This document shows, in pieces, positions 1-21,640 of a DNA stretch of 64,000 bases (positions are counted from its first letter, which is position 1; each line of letters starts with the position of its first letter). The position numbers and the translations under genes were made by a program. Origin of the DNA: Phytophthora sp. 'mugwort' (taxonomy: Eukaryota; Oomycota; Peronosporomycetes; Peronosporales; Peronosporaceae); assembly GCA_033558025.1 (NCBI GenBank), contig JAUCEF010000005.1:2976001-3040000 (forward strand), in the 5' to 3' direction. Below the pieces are notes generated by a model. The model searched no databases, was not told where the DNA came from, and was given only the letters and a program-made list of their open reading frames with translations.

Positions 1-1323
1 AGCAATACTAACAGATTATTACGAACTGGCCCATGCTAAGGACATAAATATCCCATTCCGATTGAAACCTGTGGTGGAAGTAGATGGGGTGGTTAAGACG
101 CACAACACATATTACTTTGGTGTTCCATCAAAAAGGAAACCACTAAATATTAAAAACGACCAGCATAAGCAGGTTTCTGGTGCAGCTTGGAAGGGGCTAA
201 TGAAGAATATCAGATGGATGGATACGTTTTTAGCACTGCTTAATGGACTTGAAGACATCGATCGCTATCTAGCTGAAATTGACTACCCTTTACCTAGAAG
301 TAATACTGAGGTTATTAAATTGGTAGAGAATCAGAAGCTTGACAAAGCTCGACGCCACAATCTTGATGAAAATCTCAAAATATTGAATGAAGCCATCGTA
401 AAGTCTGCTCAGGTTATTAGACGTCAAAGTAATAAACCTTATGATCCTGAAAATGAAGATGAGCTGCAAAAGCTCCACGATGAATCTGAAGCAGCATATC
501 AAGTATACGGAGAGGTTCAAAAGCGTTATGAAGAAGCGAAGATGGCAATCAAAGCCAACAAATCAAAATCGGCGAGATCTGCACTAAAGGCAGCGACGTC
601 AGCAATGAGAGCTACAAAGGCTGTCTTTGCAGCCAAGTCTAAAAGATATAGCCAGGCTTTTAGAGATAACCTTGCTCTGCAGGAGCAGATCACCGTCGAT
701 AAATTTGCGGAACATCAAGATGAAAAAGCGGTCAGAGGAGTTATGAATGATATGAAAACTGTTATCAGTGGTGAAGGTCTAGAGGGACGTGGTTTGCGAG
801 GAGCTGGTGTAGCTCCTCTAGAAGGTGTTGTCAGACGTGGTAGAACCTACAATCTTAACGAGATTCAGGGATTAGCAACCCCCAGCGCTTATACGTATCG
901 CCAGCTTGGGAGCAAGTACATCCGTATCCTGACCTTGATGCGAAGACACTCGTAATTGTGCAGCCAAACCGGCGCAAATGCGGACCTAAGTGCCAGATTA
1001 GTGATAGCCTTCAAGCAATGATCCGGACTCTTGTATATAAGAACCATATCGATCAAGCTTCGTATGACAAGCTCAACATCGATGATAAAAAAATGTTCAA
1101 GGAGATCCTAGCGATAACACATCTCCAGTACAATTTTCACGATAAGCTCACGGACCCACTGGAGACGCTCCGTGCTGAGTATGATAAGCTGAAAGGCGAG
1201 CTTGAGCTTGGAAATGATAACCCCAGCATCATCAAGCAACTAAAATCTCTCACGGTGGATATGTACAGCAATCGATTGATTGGAGATAAAGAGTTTAAGG
1301 AAATTGTCACTCGACTACTATAG
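1..1323 (+). pseudogene. Polinton large structural-type gene, 3' part (left-arm copy)
   Basis: The reading frame is open from position 2, so the gene enters from outside the window. It is lysine- and alanine-rich with a helical, coiled-coil-like middle (about 300-700). At about 921-927 a one-base loss moves the frame: the upstream frame stops at 953-955, while the downstream frame carries a sensible continuation that runs to 1321. The C-terminal part has the motif GELELGNDNPSIIKQLK. The same one-base break is in the right-arm copy, so it predates the inverted duplication. Function is not recognised; by length and place among Polinton genes it could be a capsid-related or other virion protein, which is inference only. 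Confidence 0.7.
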
Positions 1324-1386
1324 CGCAGAGCTTAGAGAACTTGTTCTCAGATCTGCGATCCTTCGGACTTCGTTCTAATAAACAAT

Positions 1387-1653
1387 ATGTTCTTCTTCAA
1401 CCCCCGCATTATTTTCAGCTCAGGTGGTAGCTATGGCGACAACGCAGATAATAATGTTGCTGAACTCAAAGCTATCATGAAGAATCTAATTATTCATGAG
1501 CGCCCTCAGAAGACGCAGGCAGCTGTATGGGCAACTGATCTCGACAAAAGTATCAAGAAGGTTGACGTTTCAACCCAAACTGAAGGTGGCCGTGTATGGG
1601 CTTATCAACCTAAACAAAAAAAGAAGCCTTCAACGAAGACGTTTGCTCTCTAA
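1387..1653 (+). CDS. Polinton small protein (left-arm copy)
   Basis: An 88-residue protein starting MFFFNPRIIFSSGG and ending in a lysine-rich tail (KQKKKPSTKTFAL). No recognised domain. It lies 63 bases after the large structural gene on the same strand and overlaps the 3' end of the convergent gene at 1650-1895 by 4 bases, the tight packing typical of Polintons. An exact inverted counterpart is at 18,981-19,247. Confidence 0.6.
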   Translation: MFFFNPRIIFSSGGSYGDNADNNVAELKAIMKNLIIHERPQKTQAAVWATDLDKSIKKVDVSTQTEGGRVWAYQPKQKKKPSTKTFAL

Positions 1654-1895
1654 GCAATGCCACTCCGCACGAATTTACCCTCGATAAATGTTAATTTTTT
1701 ATCGCTGATACTAACTTCAAATATGGCAGACTCCCCGTCATGGTTTTTGGTTGGGATGAATACAGTATCACCAAGAACGATAATTTGGTCAGCTTGCAGC
1801 ACCGTAGCTCCGACGACCTGGCTTGGCTCATCAAGCCTAAGCTCCTTACTTGGCATACAACCCATGGTTGAGGTGGTGAAAGCACCGATTCGCAA
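1650..1895 (-). CDS. Polinton small protein, unknown (left-arm copy)
   Basis: An 81-residue protein starting MRIGAFTTSTMGCMPSKE, with a beta-rich looking C-terminal half (VFIPTKNHDGESAIFEVS). No recognised family. It is convergent with the preceding gene, with a 4-base overlap. The counterpart is at 18,739-18,984. Confidence 0.5.
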   Translation of the reverse strand: MRIGAFTTSTMGCMPSKELRLDEPSQVVGATVLQADQIIVLGDTVFIPTKNHDGESAIFEVSISDKKLTFIEGKFVRSGIA

Positions 1896-1945
1896 ACGTA
1901 GTTTGCTTGATATACCCTAACAGAGTAGGGCCTACGAACTATACC

Positions 1946-2236
1946 CTACCAAAGAAAACTCTTGGAAAACCAGTCCGCTGTATATGGTGGGTAGTCTATT
2001 TTGTGCCGCTTATAGTAGCGCTCACGGCGTTTTGGGTCGTTGTGGTCTAAATGCACGAATGCTTGTAACGGAGTTCTGTCTCTAAAATGAAAATATCTAC
2101 TATCGCCAAAATCCACTCTATACAACCTCTCACCGTCTCTGATCCAAACACGGTATTTCTTGTGCTTTAATGGGCTGATCTGCCACCGTTCGATCTTCAT
2201 AATGTTTATAATCACAGTTTGTGCATATTTATCCAT
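1946..2236 (-). CDS. DUF5754-like Polinton protein (left-arm copy)
   Basis: A 96-residue basic protein. The C-terminal half has the pattern YRVDFGDSRYFHFRD, then HLDHNDPKRRERYYKRH and a final ADWFSKSFLW. This layout (FGD, HxDHND, RRxxYYKRH, WFSxxxLW) resembles a small family found in large DNA viruses and virus-like mobile elements that I recall as DUF5754; the name is from memory and should be treated as tentative. Function unknown. It overlaps the S74-like gene at 2229-2510 by 8 bases in an operon-like fashion. The counterpart is at 18,398-18,688. Confidence 0.55.
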   Translation of the reverse strand: MDKYAQTVIINIMKIERWQISPLKHKKYRVWIRDGERLYRVDFGDSRYFHFRDRTPLQAFVHLDHNDPKRRERYYKRHKIDYPPYTADWFSKSFLW

Positions 2237-2510
2237 CTATTTGCACCTGCTGCTCTTGAATGGCTTTACACAACACACTTACTAAACTAGATAAATCAAT
2301 CCCCATTGGATTAATAGGTTCGCCTGATTCATTCATTTCATCGTCAGGTGATTCAACGCCTGAAACGCACTCGGGGATGATATCAACTATCTCCTGAGCA
2401 ATAAATCCAACGTGCTCGCTATCATCACTACGTAGCGAGAATTTTCTTGGTTGCACCCCAGACTCGAGCACCTCTGTCAGTGACGACTCGTCCGCTGCTC
2501 TCGGCTGCAA
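2229..2510 (-). pseudogene. S74-type intramolecular chaperone domain, N-terminally truncated (left-arm copy)
   Basis: The last ~70 residues read HVGFIAQEIVDIIPECV, a short linker, then an NPMGIDLSSLVSVLCKAIQEQ helix. This is the hallmark of the C-terminal self-cleaving trimerisation chaperone (peptidase S74) of phage tail fibres and endosialidases, also seen in virus-like elements. The preceding fibre or spike part is missing: near 2,450-2,475 the sequence changes to the CT-rich repeat region. A normal protein would have hundreds of upstream residues. The counterpart is at 18,124-18,405. Confidence 0.6.
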
Positions 2511-2764
2511 GCTTCCCTGTCTGTTCGCCGACGCTGCAGACGTCCCTCAAAGCGATGTGGCTCACCGTCGAGTTGCTTCTCATCACCGTCGCGTCCATCA
2601 AGGTCAGGGCGTCAATCCATTTCAAGCTACTTGCTCCATGCATGCCTCGGTGTCATCACTCCATTCTGCTTCCATCATCCACACGATCATCTGCCCGCAG
2701 CGTCATCACCGGCTCAATCATCCTCCTCATTCACTTTGTCGGCGCACTTCCTGCTGCCTGCTAT

Positions 2765-3030
2765 GAGTCCATACCTCGGCGGATATGTGCGTACTTCGGC
2801 GAGTACACTCACGGCTGCTGCGCTCTGTGCCCGTGCTCTCTGCTGCCTGCCCTGAGTCCATACCTCGGCGGATATGTGCAGTACTTCGGCGAGTACACTC
2901 ACGGCTGCTGCACTTCGCACTCGTATGCCCTATGCACATCGATTTCACAGCTTCTGCTTCCACCCTGAACCCGTATCTCGGCGGATACGTGCAGTACTTC
3001 GGCGAGCACAGTCCACGGCTTCTGCTTCAG
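2765..3030. repeat. Three-copy degenerate minisatellite
   Basis: Three head-to-tail units of roughly 90-110 bases share a core of the form CCATACCTCGGCGGATATGT, followed by GTACTTCGGCGAGTACACTC and a CACGGCTGCTGC tail. The third unit is the most diverged. The inverted counterpart is near 17,604-17,870. Confidence 0.8.
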
Positions 3031-3184
3031 CTCTCATCCGCCCTTCATCATCCTCTCATCCTCCTCATCCTCCTCTCATCCATCCCTCACGCAGAAGCAC
3101 ATCGTGCGACAACCGGTTCGCTGCAGCGCCCCTGGCCACCGACGGTGTCTCGCCACGTAGCATCATCATCAGTCGCACAGAATG

Positions 3185-3290
3185 GTTACCGCACTTGCGT
3201 AGGACTGGTTACCCCGCTCAAGGGAGTGTTACCTCACCCGCACGGAGTTTCACCGTACTCGCAGAGGAATGGTTACCTCGCTCAGCATCT
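3185..3290. repeat. Short tandem repeat with GGTTACC core
   Basis: About four degenerate units of 26-32 bases contain variants of GGTTACC(G/C)C or TGTTACCTC, each followed by a CGCA/CGCTC stretch (GGTTACCGCACTTGCG, GGTTACCCCGCTC, GTTACCTCACCCGCAC, GGTTACCTCGCTC). Confidence 0.6.
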
Positions 3291-3978
3291 CTCAGCACTT
3301 CTCTCCCAGCAATCATCCCAGCCATCCGCTTACTTACCAATGCTTACCTCACACCTTTGTCTCTGCTGCTCTGCATCTTCACTGCTTTCCATGTCGGCGG
3401 TATCGCGTTCCACATCACATCCAAATCCACTCGAAAACTCTGTCATCACTTCATCCACGGTCCAACTCGTCCACTGGCGGGCGCCGTTGCTTCACTTCGT
3501 CTTCATCTGCACGCTGCTCTCGTGCTCTTGCATCTTCTTCTGGCTGCCGCCGGGCTTCTGCTGCTTGCCGCTGTCGTGCTGCTGCTGCTTCTCGCTTTCC
3601 CTCGTTCATCTGCTGTCATGCTGCTGTAGGCACTGCTCGCTCGCCGCTATCGTTCTTGCTGAACTTTCGGCTGGCTGTCGTCAGCCTCCTTCGTCAGCCG
3701 TTGTGGGGGTTCTGAGGGCCGCTGATGTCGTAAAGTCGCGTCTTCGCTCCCCGCTGCTATCATGCGTCTGCATCCTCGGCTTCGGTTCCGTGGCGTCTTC
3801 TCCTGGCTGCCGCTGTCGTCTGAGCCCCGCGCTGGCTTCATCTGCTCTCGTCGATCTCGCTCTGCTGCGGTCTTCGTCGTTCGGTCGTGCCTCCTTCTTC
3901 TTGCTGCTGTCCGGCTACCTCTTGAGCTGCCTGTGGCTGTTGTTGCGCTTCATCTGCATGGGCATGCCGTTCTCGTTC

Positions 3979-4829
3979 ACAGAGGTCGACAGCATCGAGG
4001 ACCCACAAAACACCCCAGCCAAACTATATATTTTTGGATTCGCCATAGAAAATGTGAAAAAAGTAAAAAACCTTCCGGTGCCGTACGACACGTAGAACAT
4101 GCAGAAACTGCAAGTCAGTTGCACCCGGTTTAAGAAGCCGCGAGCCTACGATTTACGCAACAGTGCGCAATAATCCGAAGGTGATTTTGTCCAATCAGAT
4201 ACCTTTATTTTCGCTGGGAAGGCTCTAACGAGGACCACGACAATCTCGTCGCTGTCGCCGTCTTTCCACCGCCGATAAGCTCCGCTCCACGCTCCAAGGC
4301 ATGCACTGCATCGACTTCCTTCAGCAGATCTAGCTCAACACAAGCGCTGAGAAGTCCGCGCAGCCCTGTGAGCCCAAGACCACCCTTCTGAGCGTGTCGC
4401 TTTCCTGCATGCAGTCGTCCAGTGCAGGCAACTACGGCTTGGCGCTCACCGTCTCCGACTTGGGGTCTTCGACACTTGCACGTCGAGGCTTCTTGGGCTT
4501 GCGGTTCTTCATTGCATTTGCCTGCGTTTACAACTATCAACTCCGTTTTAGGTTATAAATAACGACGATTTATTTTTAAAACCGATATCTGAAACGATAT
4601 CATATTGGAAAGGGTACAACTAGATCCAGGCGCAATGGTCACGCATGATTCGCCAAAACTAGACATGGGCTAGGTTTATTGCCTTTCCCTCCACTCTGCT
4701 TGGCGAAGACTGTGGTTTTCACCATAAATAGAGCTCGCTGAAATGCACATGCTGGCCAAATCTGACAAAAATTGAGCTAAAATTGACCGAGTTGTGTTTT
4801 TTTGGGTCCTCGATGCTGTCGACCTCTGT
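3979..4829. mobile_element. 850-bp segment with 27-bp perfect terminal inverted repeats
   Basis: The 27 bases at 3979-4005 (beginning ACAGAGGTCGACAGCATCGA) are the exact reverse complement of 4803-4829. The inside differs from the flanks: AT-rich stretches near 4,020-4,080 and 4,550-4,620 replace the CT-rich flanks. A 111-codon frame (4205-4540, minus) inside it looks broken, because sensible short runs occur in different frames. I found no transposase and no clear target-site duplication (flanks CTCGTTC and CAGTTTC). It could be a MITE-like element. Alternatively the termini could be a shared coding motif, since both read TEVDSIEDP outward-in. Confidence 0.5.
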
Positions 4830-6209
4830 CAGTTTCGTCTTCTTCTGCTCGGTGACGTCGGTTAGCTTCATCTTCGGTCGTCGTTCTGCTGCGTCTTCTG
4901 ACTCTGCTGTCGTTCAGCTCCATCTTCTGCTGTCTGCAGCTGTCGTTTTGCTGCGATCACTGGCGCTGGTCGCTGCCATCCCGCTGTTCTTCTTCTAGAT
5001 ATATCTGTCGCGCTGTTTGGTCTTCTGCTGTCTGCTTCCCGTCTTTCTCTGGCTACCGCCGGGGTCTGGTCATTCAGCTGCCTGCTGCCACCGGTCGGCT
5101 GCGTCCTCTTCTCTTGTATCACTGCTTCTCTGTCTGACCTGCTGCGGCTGTCGGAACTTCGCGCTGTCTTCTTCTGCTGTCGTGTCAGTGTGCCTGCTGC
5201 TGTCGCTCCTGTCGTCCCGCTGGGGCCTCTTCAGCATGATGCTGCCGTCGTGATGCGTCTTCTGCTGCTTGTTGCTTGTTGCTGTCGGTTGTTTGCTGGT
5301 ATCGGTTGTTGCGCCCTCATCTTCTGTTCTGCTCCGTAGTCCTTGCTGGGCTGTTTCTCTGCTCTCTGGTCTCTGTTGACGGTTGCACCCGTTCCTCGCG
5401 GTTCACGCCGGTGACGCTCGGTATCATGAGGGCTGGCTTCGAGCTGTTTATCTCGCTGGTGCTAACTGTCATGCAGCTCAGTCCCGGCACTCCTTCTGCT
5501 GCTCTGGGTCGTGTCCGCCAGGCTGGCTTCTCGCTGCTCATCCCTTCGGCTGGCTCACGGATAGCATGCGCTGCTCCACTGCTCGTTCGCTGTTGCTCTC
5601 TCGTCTCGACGGCGCGTCTTCTGCTGTCAGGGCCTTGGTTGTCTGGCTGATCTTCTCCTGGACGTCGGGCTCTTCACTCGCCGCCATCGTCGTTCTTCTT
5701 GGCCTCCTTTCACCTGCCGTTTTCGTAGTGCTGCATCTTCGGCTGTCATCCGTCGATGTCTTCCTCTGTCTGCCGATGTTATACTTCCGCTGGGTGTATG
5801 TGTCGTTCTCTGCGTCCTCGGCTCTCTGGGATCGTCCTTGGCTGCTTGTCGCTGTCGCTGCTCCGCCTCATCAGCCGTCGTTCATCTTGCCCCCTCTTCC
5901 ATGCTCGCTCCTGAGCGGCTCGGGTTCGTGCCGCTGGGCCTAGCTTCACTTAGTAGGCCCCTGTATGACCACCAAGTAAGCAAGCGCACAGTACTTGCTC
6001 GAGTTCGTCAAAGTCGTATAGCTTGCCAAATGCAACACAAACACACATATGGCCGCCGAGGACTCAATCGAAGTCCTCCCGCCGGTGCCACGTGAGTAGC
6101 CCCTATTTGTATTAGTGATGAGTGTGCGATCTATAGTCGTCGTCCTGCTGCTCTGGGCTTCGATGCGAATCTGGAAGTGTCGGCTTCATCCTCACCCACG
6201 CGCGAGCAC

Positions 6210-6905
6210 CCCTTGCACCTCATCCAGCAACTTCAACCCGAAGATCGCGGGCCAAACAGCCGTTCCAGATAGGATCTGGTTGCTCGTTTGGAGTCCGTCG
6301 AGTCAACGCTGCATTGTTCGTGTCTTCTGTGGGTTCGGACCGCTTAAGAGTTTCACTCTTCTTACTGGACGACGTGAACTCTTGGTCGTCCAGCCGGTGC
6401 ATGTACAGCCGTCGCGCCAGCTTGGCCATCTCGCCAGGCGCCAAACCGCCGAAACACAGCTTGTTCACCGTGTGCGACGCGTTCACCAGCGACGAGTCCA
6501 TTGAGTACGCCGGGTGGCCAGGTGCACGTGGAAGTTGCCGGGCTTCACGTACGTGTGGCCGTACAGCCGGCAGCCCTCGCCGAGCGAGCGATCACTTTTC
6601 CCTCGTCGCGCACGTCCTTCTTGTCCTGCTCAAACAGCTCCTTCTTCCGGGCCCCCACAACGTTCACCTCGCCTGCCATGAGCTGTTTGACTTCCACGAA
6701 GGCCTCGACTGCGGTCCATCGCAGTACATTCTACGAGCGAGACATCGCCGTCCTTGAGGATCGTGGGGTACGCGCGGATGAATTGCTTCATACACCTGCG
6801 GGTGCGCCTGACAGTCCACTGACGCGACGCGTACATGCAGCCGCCGCACCCCGTGCATTAACCGCCGCAGTGCGGCGTCCGCTACCTTCAAGTTGTTCAT
6901 CTGAG
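6210..6905 (-). pseudogene. ERV41/ERV46 (ERGIC)-like protein fragment, broken (left-arm copy)
   Basis: On the minus strand three frames in turn carry related pieces. The best stretch reads EGCRLYGHTYVKPGNFHVHL, then YSMDSSLVNASHTVNKLCFGG. This matches the pattern of the lumenal domain of COPII-vesicle cargo receptors of the ERGIC/Erv41-Erv46 family (CxVxG...GNFH...SHxVxxLxFG), including the PDI-fused versions. At least two frameshifts separate the pieces, and neither the N-terminal membrane segment nor the C-terminal anchor is visible. It is a decayed fragment carried by the duplicated block; family assignment is by motif only. The counterpart is at 13,729-14,424. Confidence 0.5.
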
Positions 6906-6933
6906 ATATCCCGCTATTTTCCACGTTTTTAAT

Positions 6934-6984
6934 CGACTTTTTACTTTTTTACAGAGGTTTCCACTTAAATTAAGTAAAAAGTCG
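6934..6984. repeat. 13-bp perfect hairpin with 25-nt loop
   Basis: CGACTTTTTACTT at 6934-6946 is the exact reverse complement of 6972-6984. It sits just beyond the ERV-like fragment. It could be the end of a small element or a transcript terminator; nothing else supports either. Confidence 0.45.
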
Positions 6985-7694
6985 CGTAAAAAAACAACAC
7001 TGGTCAAGGCAGTGCTTCGAATTTGCGAGAAACTTTTCACAAACGCAAAGCGCCGGAAACTTCGATGATGCGACGACCGATCCTGACGTCTGCTGCGCCA
7101 GATCACGATGGAAACTTCAACGCTGAATCGTTGAAAACGCATGGAAATCGACCAGCGTGAAATTTTCAGGATCGACGAGCGCTTCACTAACTTTCCGCTA
7201 TGCGGATGCGATTCTCGAATCACACCAGAGAATCCTCCGTGCGATAGCGCGTCTGATGAGCTTGGGATTTCCCATGGTTGGGATACGACGCCGGAACGCG
7301 GCGGACACGTACAGTACTGGAGGCGAAAAAAAAAAATACACAGACTCGAATTCTGAATTCTGAAGCGATATAACAACAAGGTATTACTGCATGCATCATC
7401 AATCATTACGCACTGAAATTACGATCACAAACAAACCGCTCTACTGCTTCATCGAAAAGCTCTCTTGGCGGATCGTGCTTGTCGTTCGACCCAACCTTTA
7501 CTCCTTAAGCGCGGAGCTTTCGGCCGCCCGGCACTTTTTCATCGGGGTGACAGCGGCAGTCGGCGGGGTGGCAGCGGCAGTCGGCTCAGTTGCAATTGGC
7601 GTGGTCGGGGCAACCGTGGTCGGGCTCGACGTCGTGGAGATCGATCCGTTGGGCTCGGTGCCGTTGGGCTCGCCGGCGTCAGACTCGTACCCTG

Positions 7695-8672
7695 CTACTG
7701 GAGCGTGAGGAGACCGGGGCGGTACGGCTGCTTGTCATACGCTGCGCCTCTGTTGGGATTCTGACCTTGGTACAGCAGCTGCAAGTTGCACGGATCGATC
7801 GTCATCTTCTCGTCAGGGTCGCTGCGGATCAAGTCGCCGTGGCTGATGTCGTTGGTCCACGTTGCACCACTGTTGGCTTTGCCGGCGAACGGCGCGCTCT
7901 CACTCGTCGCCTGCGGCGTCCACGTACCCCCAAGATCCGTGGCCGTAAACGAACGGAAGTAGCGGCCGTTCTTGCCCATGGCCTCGACAATCATGAGGTA
8001 CTGGTCTTGGCCCTTCACTGTGTAGACTTGGACCGCTTCAAAGAGATTCTTTTTCGTGTCGCTCATGACAACGGCCGACTCCGTGCCAAAGTCGCCTGGG
8101 AACTGGCCAATCGGCATGCTCGCGCGGTAGATTTTGCCGTTGTCACCCGCGAAGAAGAGGTACATGTTCTTGCTGTCACCAATGACCGTCTGGTCAATGG
8201 GGCCAGTGTCGGAGCCCGTGATCTTGCCCGAGAAGAGCGGCAGAGGCTCCGACCAGCCATTGACGTTGCTCGGGTCCTTGGACGTGCGGTACGTGAAGGT
8301 GGTGGGGCCCCACTGGTGGGCGAGGACCCAAATGTTCTTGGGACGGAAGAGGAAGAGCGTCGGTGCAACGGCACTGAACGGCGTCGCCGTTTGGCTGGCG
8401 GTGGCCATTTCGTTCCAGTTGGAGAAGAGACCAAACGCCATCGAGCCGTAGCCGTTGCCATTGTGGTTGGAGCCGTACACGAGGTGGCTTCCTTTGTACG
8501 CCGCGCACGTAAAGTCCTTGAGCGAGAGCCAGCCACTCTTGGGCTCGGCGAGCGCCGCGTCGGGCGACGGCTTCCACTGGTACGTCTTTGGGAGCGTGCA
8601 CTGGGCCGCGCCGCCCGTGGACGCGAGGGTGACGAGCGCGGCCGCGGCGGCCAGCGTCCGGAGAACAAACAT
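7695..8672 (-). CDS. GH62 alpha-L-arabinofuranosidase, left-arm copy with premature stop
   Basis: A secreted enzyme predicted to release arabinose side chains from arabinoxylan in plant cell walls. Residues 1-23 are a signal peptide ([18 protein letters not shown]), and the mature domain starts near [17 protein letters not shown]62 landmarks are [38 protein letters not shown], and NLFEAVQVY followed by YLMIVEAMG with the likely acid Glu. Compared with the right-arm copy, a CAG codon is TAG here, ending the protein after 325 residues and removing a Ser/Thr/Pro-rich tail whose codons persist at 7497-7694. The catalytic domain is complete, so the protein may still function. The 5' leader (8,690-8,800) has one copy of a unit that is doubled in the other two loci. 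Confidence 0.9.
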
Positions 8673-9176
8673 AGTTGTGAAGAAGAGTGGGGAAATGCGA
8701 GACTGGAGTCAGCGAGAGATCGGTTCGGCGAGCAAGAGAGACAGTGACACGAGGACGGTTGGTCTCCAAAGACAGCTGGAGATCGGTTCATTGTCGCGAG
8801 AGGGAACCAGTCGTGACGCGAGAATGGGACGAGAAGCCATGACGATATGTGCAGTCCGACGTCATTATGTCTCTGGACGCATGCCTCTCACTTTAGAAGG
8901 GATCACCACACGACGCGATGCGGATACCCTCACGCAATGGCGACGTGAGTCTCAGCAAGGTACTGATCTCTATAATTAACTGAACTGAGAGTTTATGTTC
9001 TAAAAAAGGGTTCAGTCTCACTGACGCTGCCTTTGTCGCTGTAAAGGCATGGGGGGGACGCTTTCAACATCGTTTTCACGATCACCAAACTCGCAACTCG
9101 TACGCTTAAGGGACATGACGGATTGAGCGGTTTTAAGACCACCTAAAGATGGAAAAGGAGCTGCTCACGCTCTCAC

Positions 9177-9262
9177 GTGGTCGAGAGGTTGTGTCGTAAA
9201 AATAGCAGCTGGCCCTAAAGAATGTCCTAGGATTATTCTTGTTGATAAATTACGGAAAGTAA
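9177..9262 (+). repeat. Dispersed repeat ending AAATTACGG
   Basis: The stretch GTGGTCGAGAGGTTGTGTCG, then AATAGCAGCTG and, some 40 bases later, GATAAATTACGG recurs in related form at 29,447-29,500, 29,548-29,634 and 31,259-31,334, and inverted at 11,295-11,385. It lies directly against the point where the GH81 fragment is cut off. Confidence 0.7.
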
Positions 9263-9295
9263 AAAACTGACGGTGTAATGTGCTGCGACCCACTA

Positions 9296-9596
9296 CTTCT
9301 GTTGTGGTGTGGATGAGGTTCCCCCACCACTTGTTGGTGGGTATGGGCTTGGTGAGCAGGTCGGACGCGACGTTGATAATGGGGGCGAGCGCGGTTAGTC
9401 CTTTCTTGCGTTCGAACAGCGTCTCGGACGGTGCGTCGGTAGCGAATGGTGCGAGGTATCTGGATTGGATCCCGTTGGTTGCCTTGATGTCATCTTTGGT
9501 ATTCTGCGCCACGTGTTGGTTTGTGTTGATAGCATTACTAGTTGTAGTACAGCTAATACATGTCGTCGCCAAAAGTAGCTGGAGAGACCTCGTCAT
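9296..9596 (-). pseudogene. GH81 endo-1,3-beta-glucanase 5' fragment, minus-strand paralogue
   Basis: Starts at ATG 9596 with a signal-peptide-like MTRSLQLLLATTCISCTTTS, followed by the GH81 N-terminal stretch TDAPSETLFERKKGLTALAP and KPIPTNKWWGNLIHTTTE. Homology stops at the TTTE codons; after that the sequence is the TAGTGGGTCGCAGCAC junction and the dispersed repeat. Only ~100 of the usual 650-700 residues remain. The identical truncation exists at 31,377-31,678, so it predates the block duplication. Confidence 0.85.
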
Positions 9597-9811
9597 GCTT
9601 GTCGGAGCTCTGGGGTCCCAGTCTTGTAAGCTGACGTGTAGTTTGACGCTGGATCCTGGTTTGAAAAAAAGCACGTGTTTAAACAATTTAGTAAAATCGA
9701 ATTGACTGTATTATGACTATTTGATTGACTAGAAGCTTTTTATTCAAAACTTGAGAAAGATTACTAATCTAATCTGATTAGGGTACATGTACACGAGAGC
9801 TTGTCTTTGTT

Positions 9812-11266: not shown

Positions 11267-11761
11267 GGTCGCAGCACATTACACCGTCAGTTTTTTTACT
11301 TTCCGTAATTTATCAACAAGAATAATCCTAGGACATTCTTTAGGGCCAGCTGCTATTTTTACGACACAACCTCTCGACCACGTGAGAGCGTGAGCAGCTC
11401 CTTTTCCATCTTTAGGTGGTCTTAAAACCGCTCAATCCGTCATGTCCCTTAAGCGTACGAGTTGCGAGTTTGGTGATCGTGAAAACGATGTTGAAAGCGT
11501 CCCCCCCATGCCTTTACAGCGACAAAGGCAGCGTCAGTGAGACTGAACCCTTTTTTAGAACATAAACTCTCAGTTCAGTTAATTATAGAGATCAGTACCT
11601 TGCTGAGACTCACGTCGCCATTGCGTGAGGGTATCCGCATCGCGTCGTGTGGTGATCCCTTCTAAAGTGAGAGGCATGCGTCCAGAGACATAATGACGTC
11701 GGACTGCACATATCGTCATGGCTTCTCATCCCATTCTCGCGTCACGACTGGTTCCCTCTCG

Positions 11762-11925
11762 CGACAATGAACCGATCTCCAGCTGTCTTTGGAGACCAAC
11801 CGTCCTCGTGTCACTGTCTCTCTTGCTCGCCGAACCGATCGCGAACCGATCTCCAGCTGTCTTTGGAGACCAACCGTCCTCGTGTCACTGTCTCTCTTGC
11901 TCGCCGAACCGATCTCTCGCTGACT
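11762..11925 (+). repeat. 77-bp tandem duplication in the GH62 5' leader
   Basis: Two near-exact copies of the stretch around GAACCGATCTCCAGCTGTCT to CTCGCCGAACCGATC lie just upstream of the GH62 start. The third locus has the same duplication with a 6-bp longer unit (83 bp); the left arm has a single copy. Confidence 0.9.
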
Positions 11926-11959
11926 CCAGTCTCGCATTTCCCCACTCTTCTTCACAACT

Positions 11960-13135
11960 ATGTTTGTTCTTCGGACGCTGGCCGCCGCGGCCGCGCTCGT
12001 CACCCTCGCGTCCACGGGCGGCTCGGCCCAGTGCACGCTCCCAAAGACGTACCAGTGGAAGCCGTCGCCCGACGCGGCGCTCGCCGAGCCCAAGAGTGGC
12101 TGGCTCTCGCTCAAGGACTTTACGTGCGCGGCGTACAAAGGAAGCCACCTCGTGTACGGCTCCAACCACAATGGCAACGGCTACGGCTCGATGGCGTTTG
12201 GTCTCTTCTCCAACTGGAACGAAATGGCCACCGCCAGCCAAACGGCGACGCCGTTCAGTGCCGTTGCACCGACGCTCTTCCTCTTCCGTCCCAAGAACAT
12301 TTGGGTCCTCGCCCACCAGTGGGGCCCCACCACCTTCACGTACCGCACGTCCAAGGACCCGAGCAACGTCAATGGCTGGTCGGAGCCTCTGCCGCTCTTC
12401 TCGGGCAAGATCACGGGCTCCGACACTGGCCCCATTGACCAGACGGTCATTGGTGACAGCAAGAACATGTACCTCTTCTTCGCGGGTGACAACGGCAAAA
12501 TCTACCGCGCGAGCATGCCGATTGGCCAGTTCCCAGGCGACTTTGGCACGGAGTCGGCCGTTGTCATGAGCGACACGAAAGAGAATCTCTTTGAAGCGGT
12601 CCAAGTCTACACCGTGAAGGGCCAGGACCAGTACCTCATGATTGTCGAGGCCATGGGCAAGAACGGCCGCTACTTCCGTTCGTTTACGGCCACGGATCTT
12701 GGGGGTACGTGGACGCCGCAGGCGACGAGTGAGAGCGCGCCGTTCGCCGGCAAAGCCAACAGTGGTGCAACGTGGACCAACGACATCAGCCACGGCGACT
12801 TGATCCGCAGCGACCCTGACGAGAAGATGACGATCGATCCGTGCAACTTGCAGCTGCTGTACCAAGGTCAGAATCCCAACAGTGGCGCAGCGTATGACAA
12901 GCAGCCGTACCGCCCCGGTCTCCTCACGCTCCAGCAGCAGGGTACGAGTCTGACGCCGGCGAGCCCAACGGCACCGAGCCCAACGAATCGATCCTCCACG
13001 ACGTCGAGCCCGACCACGGTGGCCCCGACCACGCCAATTGCAACTGAGCCGACTGCCGCTGCCACCCCGCCGACTGCCGCTGTCACCCCGATGAAAAAGT
13101 GCCGGGCGGCCGAAAGCTCCGCGCTTAAGGAGTAA
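11960..13135 (+). CDS. GH62 alpha-L-arabinofuranosidase, full-length right-arm copy
   Basis: The intact 391-residue version: signal peptide, GH62 five-bladed propeller domain (about 25-320), then a Ser/Thr/Pro-rich tail (about 327-377, [12 protein letters not shown] and [10 protein letters not shown]) ending [14 protein letters not shown]. The tail could be an O-glycosylated linker. Differences from the left arm include S for A in TGGSAQ, E for K in [10 protein letters not shown], and S for R in QNPNSGAAY. It acts outside the cell on plant arabinoxylan, by family. This is the copy most likely to be functional. Confidence 0.93.
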
Positions 13136-13728
13136 AGGTTGGGTCGAACGACAAGCACGATCCGCCAAGAGAGCTTTTCGATGAAGCAGTAGAGCGGTTT
13201 GTTTGTGATCGTAATTTCAGTGCGTAATGATTGATGATGCATGCAGTAATACCTTGTTGTTATATCGCTTCAGAATTCAGAATTCGAGTCTGTGTATTTT
13301 TTTTTTTTCGCCTCCAGTACTGTACGTGTCCGCCGCGTTCCGGCGTCGTATCCCAACCATGGGAAATCCCAAGCTCATCAGACGCGCTATCGCACGGAGG
13401 ATTCTCTGGTGTGATTCGAGAATCGCATCCGCATAGCGGAAAGTTAGTGAAGCGCTCGTCGATCCTGAAAATTTCACGCTGGTCGATTTCCATGCGTTTT
13501 CAACGATTCAGCGTTGAAGTTTCCATCGTGATCTGGCGCAGCAGACGTCAGGATCGGTCGTCGCATCATCGAAGTTTCCGGCGCTTTGCGTTTGTGAAAA
13601 GTTTCTCGCAAATTCGAAGCACTGCCTTGACCAGTGTTGTTTTTTTACGCGACTTTTTACTTAATTTAAGTGGAAACCTCTGTAAAAAAGTAAAAAGTCG
13701 ATTAAAAACGTGGAAAATAGCGGGATAT

Positions 13729-14424
13729 CTCAGATGAACAACTTGAAGGTAGCGGACGCCGCACTGCGGCGGTTAATGCACGGGGTGCGGCGGCTGCATG
13801 TACGCGTCGCGTCAGTGGACTGTCAGGCGCACCCGCAGGTGTATGAAGCAATTCATCCGCGCGTACCCCACGATCCTCAAGGACGGCGATGTCTCGCTCG
13901 TAGAATGTACTGCGATGGACCGCAGTCGAGGCCTTCGTGGAAGTCAAACAGCTCATGGCAGGCGAGGTGAACGTTGTGGGGGCCCGGAAGAAGGAGCTGT
14001 TTGAGCAGGACAAGAAGGACGTGCGCGACGAGGGAAAAGTGATCGCTCGCTCGGCGAGGGCTGCCGGCTGTACGGCCACACGTACGTGAAGCCCGGCAAC
14101 TTCCACGTGCACCTGGCCACCCGGCGTACTCAATGGACTCGTCGCTGGTGAACGCGTCGCACACGGTGAACAAGCTGTGTTTCGGCGGTTTGGCGCCTGG
14201 CGAGATGGCCAAGCTGGCGCGACGGCTGTACATGCACCGGCTGGACGACCAAGAGTTCACGTCGTCCAGTAAGAAGAGTGAAACTCTTAAGCGGTCCGAA
14301 CCCACAGAAGACACGAACAATGCAGCGTTGACTCGACGGACTCCAAACGAGCAACCAGATCCTATCTGGAACGGCTGTTTGGCCCGCGATCTTCGGGTTG
14401 AAGTTGCTGGATGAGGTGCAAGGG
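13729..14424 (+). pseudogene. ERV41/ERV46 (ERGIC)-like fragment, right-arm copy
   Basis: Inverted counterpart of 6,210-6,905 with the same breaks. The clearest coding piece is 14,133-14,270 (MDSSLVNASHTVNKLCFGG); the preceding piece (GHTYVKPGNFHVHL) is in another frame at about 14,065-14,115. The frameshifts are shared by both arms and therefore older than the palindrome. Confidence 0.5.
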
Positions 14425-14529
14425 GTGCTCGCGCGTGGGTGAGGATGAAGCCGACACTTCCAGATTCGCATCGAAGCCCAGAGCAGCAGGACGACGACTA
14501 TAGATCGCACACTCATCACTAATACAAAT

Positions 14530-17500
14530 AGGGGCTACTCACGTGGCACCGGCGGGAGGACTTCGATTGAGTCCTCGGCGGCCATATGTGTGTTTGTGTT
14601 GCATTTGGCAAGCTATACGACTTTGACGAACTCGAGCAAGTACTGTGCGCTTGCTTACTTGGTGGTCATACAGGGGCCTACTAAGTGAAGCTAGGCCCAG
14701 CGGCACGAACCCGAGCCGCTCAGGAGCGAGCATGGAAGAGGGGGCAAGATGAACGACGGCTGATGAGGCGGAGCAGCGACAGCGACAAGCAGCCAAGGAC
14801 GATCCCAGAGAGCCGAGGACGCAGAGAACGACACATACACCCAGCGGAAGTATAACATCGGCAGACAGAGGAAGACATCGACGGATGACAGCCGAAGATG
14901 CAGCACTACGAAAACGGCAGGTGAAAGGAGGCCAAGAAGAACGACGATGGCGGCGAGTGAAGAGCCCGACGTCCAGGAGAAGATCAGCCAGACAACCAAG
15001 GCCCTGACAGCAGAAGACGCGCCGTCGAGACGAGAGAGCAACAGCGAACGAGCAGTGGAGCAGCGCATGCTATCCGTGAGCCAGCCGAAGGGATGAGCAG
15101 CGAGAAGCCAGCCTGGCGGACACGACCCAGAGCAGCAGAAGGAGTGCCGGGACTGAGCTGCATGACAGTTAGCACCAGCGAGATAAACAGCTCGAAGCCA
15201 GCCCTCATGATACCGAGCGTCACCGGCGTGAACCGCGAGGAACGGGTGCAACCGTCAACAGAGACCAGAGAGCAGAGAAACAGCCCAGCAAGGACTACGG
15301 AGCAGAACAGAAGATGAGGGCGCAACAACCGATACCAGCAAACAACCGACAGCAACAAGCAACAAGCAGCAGAAGACGCATCACGACGGCAGCATCATGC
15401 TGAAGAGGCCCCAGCGGGACGACAGGAGCGACAGCAGCAGGCACACTGACACGACAGCAGAAGAAGACAGCGCGAAGTTCCGACAGCCGCAGCAGGTCAG
15501 ACAGAGAAGCAGTGATACAAGAGAAGAGGACGCAGCCGACCGGTGGCAGCAGGCAGCTGAATGACCAGACCCCGGCGGTAGCCAGAGAAAGACGGGAAGC
15601 AGACAGCAGAAGACCAAACAGCGCGACAGATATATCTAGAAGAAGAACAGCGGGATGGCAGCGACCAGCGCCAGTGATCGCAGCAAAACGACAGCTGCAG
15701 ACAGCAGAAGATGGAGCTGAACGACAGCAGAGTCAGAAGACGCAGCAGAACGACGACCGAAGATGAAGCTAACCGACGTCACCGAGCAGAAGAAGACGAA
15801 ACTGACAGAGGTCGACAGCATCGAGGACCCAAAAAAACACAACTCGGTCAATTTTAGCTCAATTTTTGTCAGATTTGGCCAGCATGTGCATTTCAGCGAG
15901 CTCTATTTATGGTGAAAACCACAGTCTTCGCCAAGCAGAGTGGAGGGAAAGGCAATAAACCTAGCCCATGTCTAGTTTTGGCGAATCATGCGTGACCATT
16001 GCGCCTGGATCTAGTTGTACCCTTTCCAATATGATATCGTTTCAGATATCGGTTTTAAAAATAAATCGTCGTTATTTATAACCTAAAACGGAGTTGATAG
16101 TTGTAAACGCAGGCAAATGCAATGAAGAACCGCAAGCCCAAGAAGCCTCGACGTGCAAGTGTCGAAGACCCCAAGTCGGAGACGGTGAGCGCCAAGCCGT
16201 AGTTGCCTGCACTGGACGACTGCATGCAGGAAAGCGACACGCTCAGAAGGGTGGTCTTGGGCTCACAGGGCTGCGCGGACTTCTCAGCGCTTGTGTTGAG
16301 CTAGATCTGCTGAAGGAAGTCGATGCAGTGCATGCCTTGGAGCGTGGAGCGGAGCTTATCGGCGGTGGAAAGACGGCGACAGCGACGAGATTGTCGTGGT
16401 CCTCGTTAGAGCCTTCCCAGCGAAAATAAAGGTATCTGATTGGACAAAATCACCTTCGGATTATTGCGCACTATTGCGTAAATCGTAGGCTCGCGGCTTC
16501 TTAAACCGGGTGCAACTGACTTGCAGTTTCTGCATGTTCTACGTGTCGTACGGCACCGGAAGGTTTTTTACTTTTTTCACATTTTCTATGGCGAATCCAA
16601 AAATATATAGTTTGGCTGGGGTGTTTTGTGGGTCCTCGATGCTGTCGACCTCTGTGAACGAGAACGGCATGCCCATGCAGATGAAGCGCAACAACAGCCA
16701 CAGGCAGCTCAAGAGGTAGCCGGACAGCAGCAAGAAGAAGGAGGCACGACCGAACGACGAAGACCGCAGCAGAGCGAGATCGACGAGAGCAGATGAAGCC
16801 AGCGCGGGGCTCAGACGACAGCGGCAGCCAGGAGAAGACGCCACGGAACCGAAGCCGAGGATGCAGACGCATGATAGCAGCGGGGAGCGAAGACGCGACT
16901 TTACGACATCAGCGGCCCTCAGAACCCCCACAACGGCTGACGAAGGAGGCTGACGACAGCCAGCCGAAAGTTCAGCAAGAACGATAGCGGCGAGCGAGCA
17001 GTGCCTACAGCAGCATGACAGCAGATGAACGAGGGAAAGCGAGAAGCAGCAGCAGCACGACAGCGGCAAGCAGCAGAAGCCCGGCGGCAGCCAGAAGAAG
17101 ATGCAAGAGCACGAGAGCAGCGTGCAGATGAAGACGAAGTGAAGCAACGGCGCCCGCCAGTGGACGAGTTGGACCGTGGATGAAGTGATGACAGAGTTTT
17201 CGAGTGGATTTGGATGTGATGTGAAACGCGATACCGCCGACATGGAAAGCAGTGAAGATGCAGAGCAGCAGAGACAAAGGTGTGAGGTAAGCATTGGTAA
17301 GTAAGCGGATGGCTGGGATGATTGCTGGGAGAGAAGTGCTGAGAGATGCTGAGCGAGGTAACCATTCCTCTGCGAGTACGGTGAAACTCCGTGCGGGTGA
17401 GGTAACACTCCCTTGAGCGGGGTAACCAGTCCTACGCAAGTGCGGTAACCATTCTGTGCGACTGATGATGATGCTACGTGGCGAGACACCGTCGGTGGCC

Positions 17501-18180
17501 AGGGGCGCTGCAGCGAACCGGTTGTCGCACGATGTGCTTCTGCGTGAGGGATGGATGAGAGGAGGATGAGGAGGATGAGAGGATGATGAAGGGCGGATGA
17601 GAGCTGAAGCAGAAGCCGTGGACTGTGCTCGCCGAAGTACTGCACGTATCCGCCGAGATACGGGTTCAGGGTGGAAGCAGAAGCTGTGAAATCGATGTGC
17701 ATAGGGCATACGAGTGCGAAGTGCAGCAGCCGTGAGTGTACTCGCCGAAGTACTGCACATATCCGCCGAGGTATGGACTCAGGGCAGGCAGCAGAGAGCA
17801 CGGGCACAGAGCGCAGCAGCCGTGAGTGTACTCGCCGAAGTACGCACATATCCGCCGAGGTATGGACTCATAGCAGGCAGCAGGAAGTGCGCCGACAAAG
17901 TGAATGAGGAGGATGATTGAGCCGGTGATGACGCTGCGGGCAGATGATCGTGTGGATGATGGAAGCAGAATGGAGTGATGACACCGAGGCATGCATGGAG
18001 CAAGTAGCTTGAAATGGATTGACGCCCTGACCTTGATGGACGCGACGGTGATGAGAAGCAACTCGACGGTGAGCCACATCGCTTTGAGGGACGTCTGCAG
18101 CGTCGGCGAACAGACAGGGAAGCTTGCAGCCGAGAGCAGCGGACGAGTCGTCACTGACAGAGGTGCTCGAGTCTGGGGTG
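14530..18180. repeat. GA-rich strand-asymmetric repeat region, right-arm copy
   Basis: Mirror of 2,455-6,100, GA-rich on the plus strand. Read in this direction it gives Glu/Arg/Ser/Thr-rich disordered text in patches that change frame (for example around 14,830-15,090), as expected of an old decayed low-complexity coding stretch. Includes the minisatellite at 17,604-17,870. No credible intact gene. Confidence 0.65.
15805..16655. mobile_element. 850-bp inverted-terminus segment, right-arm copy
   Basis: Counterpart of 3,979-4,829; the 27-bp termini lie at 15,805-15,831 and 16,629-16,655. It contains the broken frame at 16,094-16,429 (minus-strand equivalent in the left arm). Read in adjacent frames it gives MKNRKPKKPRRASVEDPKSE and, further on, DEIVVVLVRAFPAKIK, so an old gene with frameshifts is possible. 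Confidence 0.5.
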
Positions 18181-18405
18181 CAACCAAGAAAATTCTCGCT
18201 ACGTAGTGATGATAGCGAGCACGTTGGATTTATTGCTCAGGAGATAGTTGATATCATCCCCGAGTGCGTTTCAGGCGTTGAATCACCTGACGATGAAATG
18301 AATGAATCAGGCGAACCTATTAATCCAATGGGGATTGATTTATCTAGTTTAGTAAGTGTGTTGTGTAAAGCCATTCAAGAGCAGCAGGTGCAAATAGATG
18401 GATAA
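18124..18405 (+). pseudogene. S74-type chaperone domain, truncated, right-arm copy
   Basis: Same protein end as 2,229-2,510. The recognisable part begins near 18,195 (RKFSLRSDDSEHVGFIAQEI). The ~60 bases before it belong to the GA-rich region and contain CTGACAGAGGT, which also begins the inverted-terminus segment at 15,803. A recombination or insertion junction probably lies at about 18,160-18,185. Confidence 0.6.
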
Positions 18406-18688
18406 ATATGCACAAACTGTGATTATAAACATTATGAAGATCGAACGGTGGCAGATCAGCCCATTAAAGCACAAGAAATACCGTGTTTGGATCAGAGACG
18501 GTGAGAGGTTGTATAGAGTGGATTTTGGCGATAGTAGATATTTTCATTTTAGAGACAGAACTCCGTTACAAGCATTCGTGCATTTAGACCACAACGACCC
18601 AAAACGCCGTGAGCGCTACTATAAGCGGCACAAAATAGACTACCCACCATATACAGCGGACTGGTTTTCCAAGAGTTTTCTTTGGTAG
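18398..18688 (+). CDS. DUF5754-like Polinton protein, right-arm copy
   Basis: Identical in reading to the left-arm copy at 1,946-2,236 (96 residues, basic; HxDHND, RRxRYYKRH and WFSKSFLW pattern). It starts 8 bases before the end of the S74-like gene, on the same strand. Downstream (18,688-18,738) an AGGGTATA motif is repeated in both orientations around the intergenic stretch. Confidence 0.55.
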   Translation: MDKYAQTVIINIMKIERWQISPLKHKKYRVWIRDGERLYRVDFGDSRYFHFRDRTPLQAFVHLDHNDPKRRERYYKRHKIDYPPYTADWFSKSFLW

Positions 18689-18738
18689 GGTATAGTTCGT
18701 AGGCCCTACTCTGTTAGGGTATATCAAGCAAACTACGT

Positions 18739-18984
18739 TTGCGAATCGGTGCTTTCACCACCTCAACCATGGGTTGTATGCCAAGTAAGGAGCTTAGGCT
18801 TGATGAGCCAAGCCAGGTCGTCGGAGCTACGGTGCTGCAAGCTGACCAAATTATCGTTCTTGGTGATACTGTATTCATCCCAACCAAAAACCATGACGGG
18901 GAGTCTGCCATATTTGAAGTTAGTATCAGCGATAAAAAATTAACATTTATCGAGGGTAAATTCGTGCGGAGTGGCATTGCTTAG
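18739..18984 (+). CDS. Polinton small protein, unknown, right-arm copy
   Basis: 81 residues, counterpart of 1,650-1,895. Convergent with the next gene with a 4-base overlap of the 3' ends. Confidence 0.5.
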   Translation: MRIGAFTTSTMGCMPSKELRLDEPSQVVGATVLQADQIIVLGDTVFIPTKNHDGESAIFEVSISDKKLTFIEGKFVRSGIA

Positions 18985-19247
18985 AGAGCAAACGTCTTCG
19001 TTGAAGGCTTCTTTTTTTGTTTAGGTTGATAAGCCCATACACGGCCACCTTCAGTTTGGGTTGAAACGTCAACCTTCTTGATACTTTTGTCGAGATCAGT
19101 TGCCCATACAGCTGCCTGCGTCTTCTGAGGGCGCTCATGAATAATTAGATTCTTCATGATAGCTTTGAGTTCAGCAACATTATTATCTGCGTTGTCGCCA
19201 TAGCTACCACCTGAGCTGAAAATAATGCGGGGGTTGAAGAAGAACAT
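18981..19247 (-). CDS. Polinton small protein, right-arm copy
   Basis: 88 residues, counterpart of 1,387-1,653. It is the last gene of the minus-strand series that starts with the polymerase at 27,545. The Gly-Ser turn near the N-terminus (FSSGGSYGDNAD) and basic C-terminus do not identify a family. Confidence 0.6.
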   Translation of the reverse strand: MFFFNPRIIFSSGGSYGDNADNNVAELKAIMKNLIIHERPQKTQAAVWATDLDKSIKKVDVSTQTEGGRVWAYQPKQKKKPSTKTFAL

Positions 19248-19310
19248 ATTGTTTATTAGAACGAAGTCCGAAGGATCGCAGATCTGAGAACAAGTTCTCT
19301 AAGCTCTGCT

Positions 19311-21640
19311 CTATAGTAGTCGAGTGATAATTTCCTTAAACTCTTTATCTCCAATCAATCGATTGCTGTACATATCCACCGTGAGAGATTTTAGTTGCTT
19401 GATGATGCTGGGGTTATCATTTCCAAGTACAAGCTCGCCTTCAGCTTATCATACTCAGCACGGAGCGTCTCCAGTGGGTCCGTGAGCTTATCGTGAAAAT
19501 TGTACTGGAGATGCGTTATCGCTAGGATCTCCTTGAACATTTTTTTATCATCGATGTTGAGCTTGTCATACGAAGCTTGATCGATATGGTTCTTATATAC
19601 AAGAGTCCGGATCATTGCTTGAAGGCTATCACTAATCTGGCACTTAGGTCCGCATTTGCGCCGGTTTGGCTGCACAATTACGAGTGTCTTCGCATCAAGG
19701 TCAGGATACGGATGTACTTGCTCCCAAGCTGGCGATACGTATAAGCGCTGGGGGTTGCTAATCCCTGAATCTCGTTAAGATTGTAGGTTCTACCACGTCT
19801 GACAACACCTTCTAGAGGAGCTACACCAGCTCCTCGCAATCCACGTCCCTCTAGACCTTCACCACTGATAACAGTTTTCATATCATTCATAACTCCTCTG
19901 ACCGCTTTTTCATCTTGATGTTCCGCAAATTTATCGACGGTGATCTGCTCCTGCAGAGCAAGGTTATCTCTAAAAGCCTGGCTATATCTTTTAGACTTGG
20001 CTGCAAAGACAGCCTTTGTAGCTCTCATTGCTGACGTCGCTGCCTTTAGTGCAGATCTCGCCGATTTTGATTTGTTGGCTTTGATTGCCATCTTCGCTTC
20101 TTCATAACGCTTTTGAACCTCTCCGTATACTTGATATGCTGCTTCAGATTCATCGTGGAGCTTTTGCAGCTCATCTTCATTTTCAGGATCATAAGGTTTA
20201 TTACTTTGACGTCTAATAACCTGAGCAGACTTTACGATGGCTTCATTCAATATTTTGAGATTTTCATCAAGATTGTGGCGTCGAGCTTTGTCAAGCTTCT
20301 GATTCTCTACCAATTTTATAACCTCAGTATTACTTCTAGGTAAAGGGTAGTCAATTTCAGCTAGATAGCGATCGATGTCTTCAAGTCCATTAAGCAGTGC
20401 TAAAAACGTATCCATCCATCTGATATTCTTCATTAGCCCCTTCCAAGCTGCACCAGAAACCTGCTTATGCTGGTCGTTTTTAATATTTAGTGGTTTCCTT
20501 TTTGATGGAACACCAAAGTAATATGTGTTGTGCGTCTTAACCACCCCATCTACTTCCACCACAGGTTTCAATCGGAATGGGATATTTATGTCCTTAGCAT
20601 GGGCCAGTTCGTAATAATCTGTTAGTATTGCTTTAGCATCATTGTCTGCGTTGCTCAGGTTTTGGTTCATATCTTCATCAGCACCACTATAGAAGCCTTG
20701 TTTTTTATCTTCCTCGTCAATTGGTGTGAAATCCTTTACATCAATTTCTTTGTCCTTTTCGCCTACAAATTCCAATTTTAGTCCTCTCTCTTTAACCGAA
20801 TTGACAAACTTTTGAAGCGTCAACACCCAATTAACTTTCTTAGTAATAGCTGGCTTTGCTCGATTTGTCTTCAACCCATAAACAGAAACGGAATTACCAT
20901 CTATCCACACGTATCCATCGTTATCAATGGGGAAGAGGTTTAGCAGTACCGGAAAGTACTGGGACAACTTTTTTTCTTAAACCATTAGATTCAAGAATAT
21001 CCCTGTTCTTGTGAATAAGCCAAAACAGTTTGATCTTACTATCAATCTGATCGGACGTGGTAGATGTTAAATTGTCGAAAAGGAAGCTATCATCAAGTCT
21101 TTGCTTGATAAGATCTGCAACATCTCTCTCTGAAGCATTCACTCGTTTTCTCTTAGAAAGCGTCTGCCATACCTGATACGGAGTATTTTTATCTTCCTGC
21201 TTCATTTCACCGCGTCGCTTCTTTTCTTTGATGTAATCAAGAAATCGAACATCGTTTGTTAGAATCTCTCCAATATGACTATATGTCTCAGCCCAATCAA
21301 TGCTTGGAACTAACACTAGTTTTCCAGACTTAATACTATAAGTCTTAGCACCTTCTCCTATGTAGTACTTAGTCAGCTGGTGACCATTATGAGAAAGGGG
21401 ATGAATACGCAAATCCGCAAGAATCTGATAAATTTCAAATATCTGAGCAACAGCTTCCTTTGATTTATTTTGATCGTTTAACTCATCATCGAATAATTTA
21501 TCATCTTTAACTAATGAGGGCTTCGCTTCGGTTGTTGAAGGTTTGATATCGACAGGTGCAACTTGCTCCACCGTAGCAAGCCTTGTAGGTCGTATATTCG
21601 TTTGAGCATCATCGTCTACCATAACAGGGCGGGCGAACAT
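19311..21640 (-). pseudogene. Polinton large structural-type gene, broken by frameshifts
   Basis: About 770 codons in pieces. Piece 1 is 21,640-20,924 (starts MFARPVMVDDDAQTN, with a globular YQILADLRIHPLSHNG region). Piece 2 is 20,967-19,678, with a long Lys/Ala/Glu helical segment. Piece 3 is 19,675-19,311. Pieces 1 and 2 meet at a run of four C (about 20,931-20,934); one C fewer would restore a plausible continuation. Pieces 2 and 3 are separated by a one-base loss shared with the left arm, and piece 3 has a further one-base loss in an A-run (about 19,440) unique to this arm. The GELELGNDNPS-type C-terminal motif survives in the left arm only. The product is unknown; a capsid-related role is possible from position and size. 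Confidence 0.7.

Follow-up and report, generated by a model that had tools for sequence, protein, structure and literature searches.

A large palindrome centred on the heads of two GH81 glucanase genes in Phytophthora sp. 'mugwort' and its possible origin

The 64,000-nucleotide stretch of contig C5 analysed here (C5:2976001-3040000; hereafter the window) comes from the 86.26-Mb assembly of Phytophthora sp. 'mugwort' (154 contigs) and holds the spacer, the right arm and a part of the left arm of a large palindrome, in which genes of the GH62 and GH81 families are combined with a partial Polinton. Coordinates are given relative to the window, negative ones lying upstream and 0 being the last base before it, and 60 kb of upstream and 20 kb of downstream sequence were added to the comparison. 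In this assembly, the one from which the structure is known, self-comparison of the window and its flanks revealed a palindrome of 49,898 bases in total, composed of a left arm of 24,088 bases (-14629 to 9458), a right arm of 24,170 bases and a spacer, which is flanked by the heads of G1 and G2, two different GH81 glucanase genes arranged head to head.

Arms, spacer and genes of the palindrome

A sequence-only reading of the window had placed a giant near-perfect palindrome at 1..20633, with a spacer of about 2 kb and a left arm leaving the window. The palindrome is indeed there and its left arm does run upstream, but the right arm goes on to 35268 and the spacer measures 1640 bases, so that what had been observed was right but incomplete and its interpretation, as specified below, partly supported. 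Positions 1-8789 match 20632-11843 in inverted orientation with 99.76% identity (8791 columns, 18 mismatches, 3 gaps), the match running on to 9458/11099 and including uninterrupted 100% inverted arms of 6144 and 1193 bases, far above chance expectation. Further outward, -9999..0 and 30639..20633 agree at 99.81% (12 mismatches, a single 7-base gap), while -14629..-10000 and 35268..30640 agree at only 96.4%, mostly because of one diverged stretch of 480 bases (34254-34733) with about 70% identity, as opposed to about 99.8% over most of the arms. Thus long arms of more than 99% identity surround a spacer everywhere except for the outer 4.6 kb. A third copy of the central unit is found at 29638-33341 in direct orientation relative to the centre. 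From the centre outward, each arm shows the order GH81 head, GH62, DNA designated X, partial Polinton, truncated GH62 of opposite direction, G2 head, spacer and GH81 gene. The palindrome, larger with the 60 kb upstream included than first described, ends in unlike flanks: sensitive comparison of -19999..-14600 with 35200..41000 detected no similarity except one 30-base match at the arm edge. The features within the window are as follows.

1..9458, no strand: part of the left arm within the window, by self-comparison; the remainder reaches -14629
7695..8672, minus: GH62, centre-left copy (cL); tail lost via a private stop
9296..9596, minus: G2 head, centre-left; about 100 codons, continued by the GH62 block; start near 9596, computed by hand from the open reading frame (ORF)
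9459..11098, no strand: spacer, with about 46 codons of G2 (minus), an intergenic stretch and codons 1-55 of G1 (plus)
10934..11261, plus: G1 head, centre; after 109 codons it passes into the GH62 block, and this junction forms the palindrome centre
11099..35268, no strand: right arm, by self-comparison
11960..13135, plus: GH62, centre-right copy (cR), complete, 391 amino acids from ATG (PF03664, 4.1e-146)
13136..18798, no strand: X, the DNA following GH62; its long matches are confined to the other arm and contig C8; right limit approximate
15805..16655, no strand: insertion of about 850 bases resembling a miniature inverted-repeat transposable element, with 32-base inverted repeats at its ends; absent from the C8 locus
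18799..29625, minus: partial Polinton with integrase and polymerase-like ORF; left limit approximate
29625..29641, no strand: junction j3 between Polinton and truncated GH62; 11-base word common to both sides, read by eye
29621..30673, minus: GH62, right outer copy (R); catalytic domain complete, tail replaced at j3
31378..31678, minus: right outer copy of the G2 head, its start hand-computed from the ORF
33014..35386, plus: right GH81 gene, a broken mosaic that is near-identical to the left gene, then diverged, again near-identical, and ends in a G2-class tail
34254..34733, plus: diverged patch in the right GH81 gene, 142 differing columns against the left gene
35269..35386, plus: GH81 tail of the G2 class, immediately beyond the palindrome; closest to P0127, P0132 and P0142

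Two further repeats were noticed around the locus. A dispersed repeat at 35378-36000, just beyond the end of the right arm, has at least 52 further matches of 72-97% identity (40 of 161 candidates scored), and a second inverted pair with 1.3-kb arms of 98.8% identity and about 250 bases between them lies upstream (-44397..-43081 and -42832..-41515).

Two classes of GH81 and the GH62 block

Attribution of the GH81 fragments to two genes follows from their ends, compared with homologous proteins labelled here by P-numbers. The G1 head is best matched by P0121 of P. nicotianae, and the G2 head by P0132 of P. cactorum both over residues 1-60 (53%) and over residues 1 to about 100 (68%), where P0183, P0127, P0138 and P0142 come next; since its N-terminal end matches another orthologue, the head adjoining GH62 is not a copy of G1. 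As for the opposite termini, the tail past the right arm, which begins behind the common word ALYNAAS, is closest to P0127 (62.5% over 32 residues), P0132 and P0142, all three being among the five best matches of the G2 head, while the tail of the left GH81 gene is closest to P0121. The heads of the two classes share 163 bases, 31378-31540 being an inverted repeat of 33179-33341. An assignment of this repeat to transposon ends was rejected, as it is GH81 coding sequence, and so was its interpretation as filler copied from G1, given its own N-terminal end matching another orthologue.

A genome-wide family search returned at least 18 GH81 matches, some genes yielding more than one. At the locus itself, GH81 is uninterrupted only in the left gene, which lies outside the window; the right gene is a broken mosaic, and the centre has nothing but heads. 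The left gene has an uninterrupted frame of 949 amino acids from stop to stop (923 from ATG), and its product reaches up to 87% identity among proteins of Phytophthora and relatives (P0132, over 76% of the query; P0121 gives 79% over 100%). The right gene is broken, its open stretches lying in different frames, and of the 152 columns in which it differs from the left one over 33014-35268, all but 10 are concentrated in the patch 34254-34733. No donor for this patch closer than the left gene (76%) and C5:2851247 (70%) was found in the assembly, and the patch may be either a remnant of G2 spared by conversion or a tract of a paralogue absent from the assembly.

GH62 has at least five matches genome-wide according to the family search, four of them at the palindrome (L in the left arm outside the window, cL, cR and R) and one at C8:808311. 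All four copies of the locus cover the entire Pfam model, with three different C-termini among them. The suggestion that the palindrome doubled pathogenicity-type genes therefore holds as far as the GH62 and GH81 enzyme genes are real, but GH62 is present in four copies and GH81 was not usefully doubled. Among the matches listed in the protein search with GH62 (120 of 5827), the named organisms are fungi, which we take to be ascomycetes, and none is named as an oomycete. In a tree of these 120 matches and two of the own copies, the latter group first with P0002, P0003, P0004, P0040 and P0090, none of them assigned to an organism by name, the relatives listed being fungal proteins and unnamed environmental ones; with the tree restricted to this set, the direction of any transfer is not readable from it. 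In the excerpts of the literature on which this and the later citations rest, GH62 is described as not represented in oomycetes (PMC4176579), and four GH62 are reported for Pythium myriotylum, the sole such case among the Pythium species compared (PMC9430622). GH62 is thus rare in oomycetes, and its lateral acquisition is possible.

The GH62 copies belong to a block, which has a relative on another contig: C8:807633-815206 matches 11260-19857 in five partly overlapping pieces of 388, 194, 3997, 1140 and 2196 columns with 93.0-97.8% identity (for matches of 80 columns or more within 10000-40000). C5 and C8 agree in the order GH62, X, Polinton, and homology begins at 11260, that is at the edge of the GH81 head, where about two bases are common to both sides of the join between block and GH81 (by eye). 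At 19857/C8:815206 the identity of 94.5% abruptly gives way to about 74%, reminiscent of an exchange between two Polinton copies. The 850-base insertion at 15805-16655 occurs in both arms and not on C8, and hence is either older than the doubling or was spread between the arms by exchange.

The proposal that the arms contain half a Polinton is plausible. The integrase with chromodomain (22435-23484) matches rve at 6.4e-9, its chromodomain remaining below the cut-off, and the polymerase-like ORF (23561-26035), which has no Pfam match itself, has homologues annotated as DNA-directed DNA polymerase, PF03175 being present in some of them, and is 89% identical to a P. cactorum protein; an rve integrase is thereby accompanied by a type-B polymerase. 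A terminal-repeat partner of the Polinton end was not found within 11261-31400, so the element lacks the pair of terminal repeats there, and the ORFs 19678-20973, 20927-21640 and 28291-29073 gave no Pfam match, no search aimed specifically at capsid genes or packaging ATPase having been made. Identities of 73-86% over 49-138 bases link the Polinton end beside j3 (29422-29626) with sequence upstream of GH62.

Proposed origin and exchange between copies

The inverted repeat formed at the palindrome centre by the G1 and G2 heads is also present, in the same arrangement, in both outer units. The spacer and the GH81 heads thus recur in all three units; the outer two continue into the GH81 body, and the central one changes to the block inside the 163-base head homology. 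The position of this change can be narrowed: at six sites in 11101-11119 the centre-right copy has the G1 base rather than that of G2, and from 11262 onward it follows the block, which confines the switch to the 142 bases of 11120-11261. Two variable sites inside this interval do not narrow it further, as 11161 fits neither head and the G2 copies differ at 11140.

On these grounds we suggest, with a probability of about 0.58, that the palindrome grew from an inverted GH81 pair, the block having been joined to G2 and doubled by inverted exchange, after which the copies were shuffled. The presence of the G2 head and the G2-type tail on opposite sides, with the right arm ending where the tails part, leads us to infer G1(-)-spacer-G2(+) as the probable ancestral locus. 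A block of GH62, X and partial Polinton related to that of C8 would first have been joined to codon ~100 of G2. A second non-homologous join, between Polinton and GH62 at j3, would then have produced an inverted G1-spacer-G2head-GH62 unit beyond the block, and merging of this unit with the G2 body via GH81 homology would explain why the right end carries the G2 tail. An ectopic switch within the 142 bases of head homology would have doubled the block and made the present centre, and exchange between the copies would have homogenised and shuffled them.

The four GH62 copies were aligned over 11261-12995 with the C8 copy as outgroup (edge columns 12994-13000 and the first column dropped, indels counted apart). 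Among ten variable substitution sites, three are private to cL and two to cR; derived states are common to cR and L at 11728, to R and L at 12981 and to R, cL and L at 12581 and 12883, and site 11971 together with a 74-base tandem duplication is common to R, cR and L. These groupings conflict and cannot all fit one tree. Between the arms, 32 substitutions were counted over 20,029 bases (-10732 to 9296; indels, heads and outer genes left out), distributed by segment as 1/1734, 12/8999, 7/1324, 3/6314 and 9/1658 bases, which is uneven both by chi-square (33, p 1.2e-6, segments chosen after inspection) and by permutation of the longest span with at most two substitutions (p 0.016). Uneven divergence and conflicting sites, within this one genome, fit arm-to-arm gene conversion. 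The arms of the block differ by 22 substitutions per 16,637 bases (0.13%) and segments of the arms by 0.05-0.54%, as compared with 1.1-1.8% between C5 and C8 in three stretches of X (47/2764, 11/1034 and 36/1965), which places the doubling, or else the most recent homogenisation, after the divergence from C8. The alternative of very recent origin or active conversion offered by the sequence-only reading is supported by these values.

Several observations weigh against the proposed history. Two of the five best matches of the G2 head, P0138 and P0183, end differently from the right tail, and the body of the left gene is equally close to both classes (87.5% to P0132 and 87.1% to P0127 of the G2 class; 86.1% to P0121/P0122 of the G1 class), so that G1 and G2 can be distinguished by heads and tails only. 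Proteins resembling the patch 34254-34733 are likewise mixed in class (P0142 of G2, 235 bits; P0122 of G1 and P0132 of G2, 225 each). Beyond 19857 (to C8:821359) the Polintons of C5 and C8 are only 74-76% identical, a divergence for which simple copying of a single C8 block does not account. The shuffling relies on just 10 substitution sites varying among the GH62 copies, some of whose patterns could be mimicked by recurrent mutation or tandem-copy loss, and the ancestral order is deduced from a single locus. The junctions, the two unlike heads, the right tail, the relative on C8 and the mosaic are observed, whereas the ancestral arrangement, the succession and direction of the events and their biochemistry are deduced from them.

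The GH81-seeded origin is held more firmly than either of the two routes conceivable for it. In a fold-back, a tentative sub-route whose odds overlap with those of the GH81-seeded origin as a whole, a 3' end, broken or stalled in the G1 head, would anneal to the G2 head 1.64 kb away, copy the arm back and return to the chromosome via the outer GH81 units. This would yield the inverted orientation of the two blocks in a single step, and inverted repeats are reported as seeds of such amplicons (PMC4256157, PMC10766186). By unequal exchange, the left G2 head would recombine with the right G1 head of the same direction and duplicate the block, one copy of which would then be flipped by inverted GH62 recombination. 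Site 12981, pairing cL with cR and L with R, is as predicted by fold-back and fits both routes; site 11728, pairing L with cR and R with cL, favours unequal exchange; and sites 12581 and 12883, which separate cR from the other three copies, fit neither without a conversion tract. With sites 11728, 12581 and 12883 taken together, fold-back would call for additional conversions.

An assembly artefact, whether from a hairpin read left unsplit or from a repeat traversed twice in assembly, has to be considered for a structure known from one assembly. It appears improbable nevertheless: apart from the 30-base edge match the ends enter dissimilar flanks, the four GH62 copies differ in bases, the arms differ by the above substitutions plus the 480-base patch, and the centre is an extended spacer, not a zero-length fold. 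Transposition, with the arms as giant terminal repeats of a Polinton carrying GH62, might be evoked by the gene order common to C5 and C8, but is highly unlikely with no terminal-repeat partner of the Polinton end found within 11261-31400 and with the palindrome centre and ends falling in GH81 genes rather than at Polinton ends. Triplication by origin-dependent inverted-repeat amplification (ODIRA) was rejected, because X has two near-identical copies, both at this locus, and the C5 block is present twice, not three times with the middle copy inverted.

Comparison with known systems

Primate sex-chromosome palindromes have spacers. The same is true of the palindrome described here, which by virtue of its 1640-base spacer is an interrupted inverted repeat, and the argument that it must be recent because palindromes are unstable in most genomes is too strong for such a spaced repeat: primate palindromes of more than 99% identity are known. 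The instability of palindromic junctions, whose spacer is lengthened by secondary rearrangements, is reported in the excerpt of PMC10766186 and speaks for the sequence-only reading where perfect palindromes are concerned. Sex-chromosome palindromes are kept more than 99% identical by conversion (PMC3723533, PMC8981503), and the structure on C5 resembles the primate ones in its long gene-bearing arms of such identity, its unpaired spacer and signs of exchange between arms. It differs from them in being located on what is not a known sex chromosome, in being built at two diverged paralogues with one outer gene broken, and in that conversion is deduced from one genome only. None of the titles and abstract openings listed from the open-licence literature mentions a palindrome of this sort in an oomycete.

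In Leishmania, inverted duplications and linear amplicons are seeded by inverted repeats (PMC4256157), and here too rearrangement would have taken place at pre-existing inverted homologous sequences, but the product is chromosomal, with other DNA on both sides, and not extrachromosomal. The inverted triplications attributed to ODIRA (PMC10766186) share with it a switch at an inverted repeat and a possible return by homologous recombination; they differ in having three copies of the block instead of two and, as far as the excerpt goes, repeats of about 5 bases located 40-80 bases apart instead of 163 bases located 1640 apart. It is conceivable, though doubtful, that the inverted GH81 pair acts as an amplification site, which took up a rare GH62 of possibly lateral origin and brought it to four copies as the palindrome grew and its arms went on exchanging; if so, the number of GH62 copies may vary between isolates. 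The palindrome belongs to a known kind, that of large gene-bearing palindromes, with an unusually legible origin: many of them hide their beginnings, whereas here the centre and the right end lie in identifiable paralogous genes, so that the seed, the inserted block and the points of exchange can be named. This makes it a testable case of inverted gene pairs giving rise to long palindromes and, in an oomycete, adding copies of an enzyme gene that is rare there.

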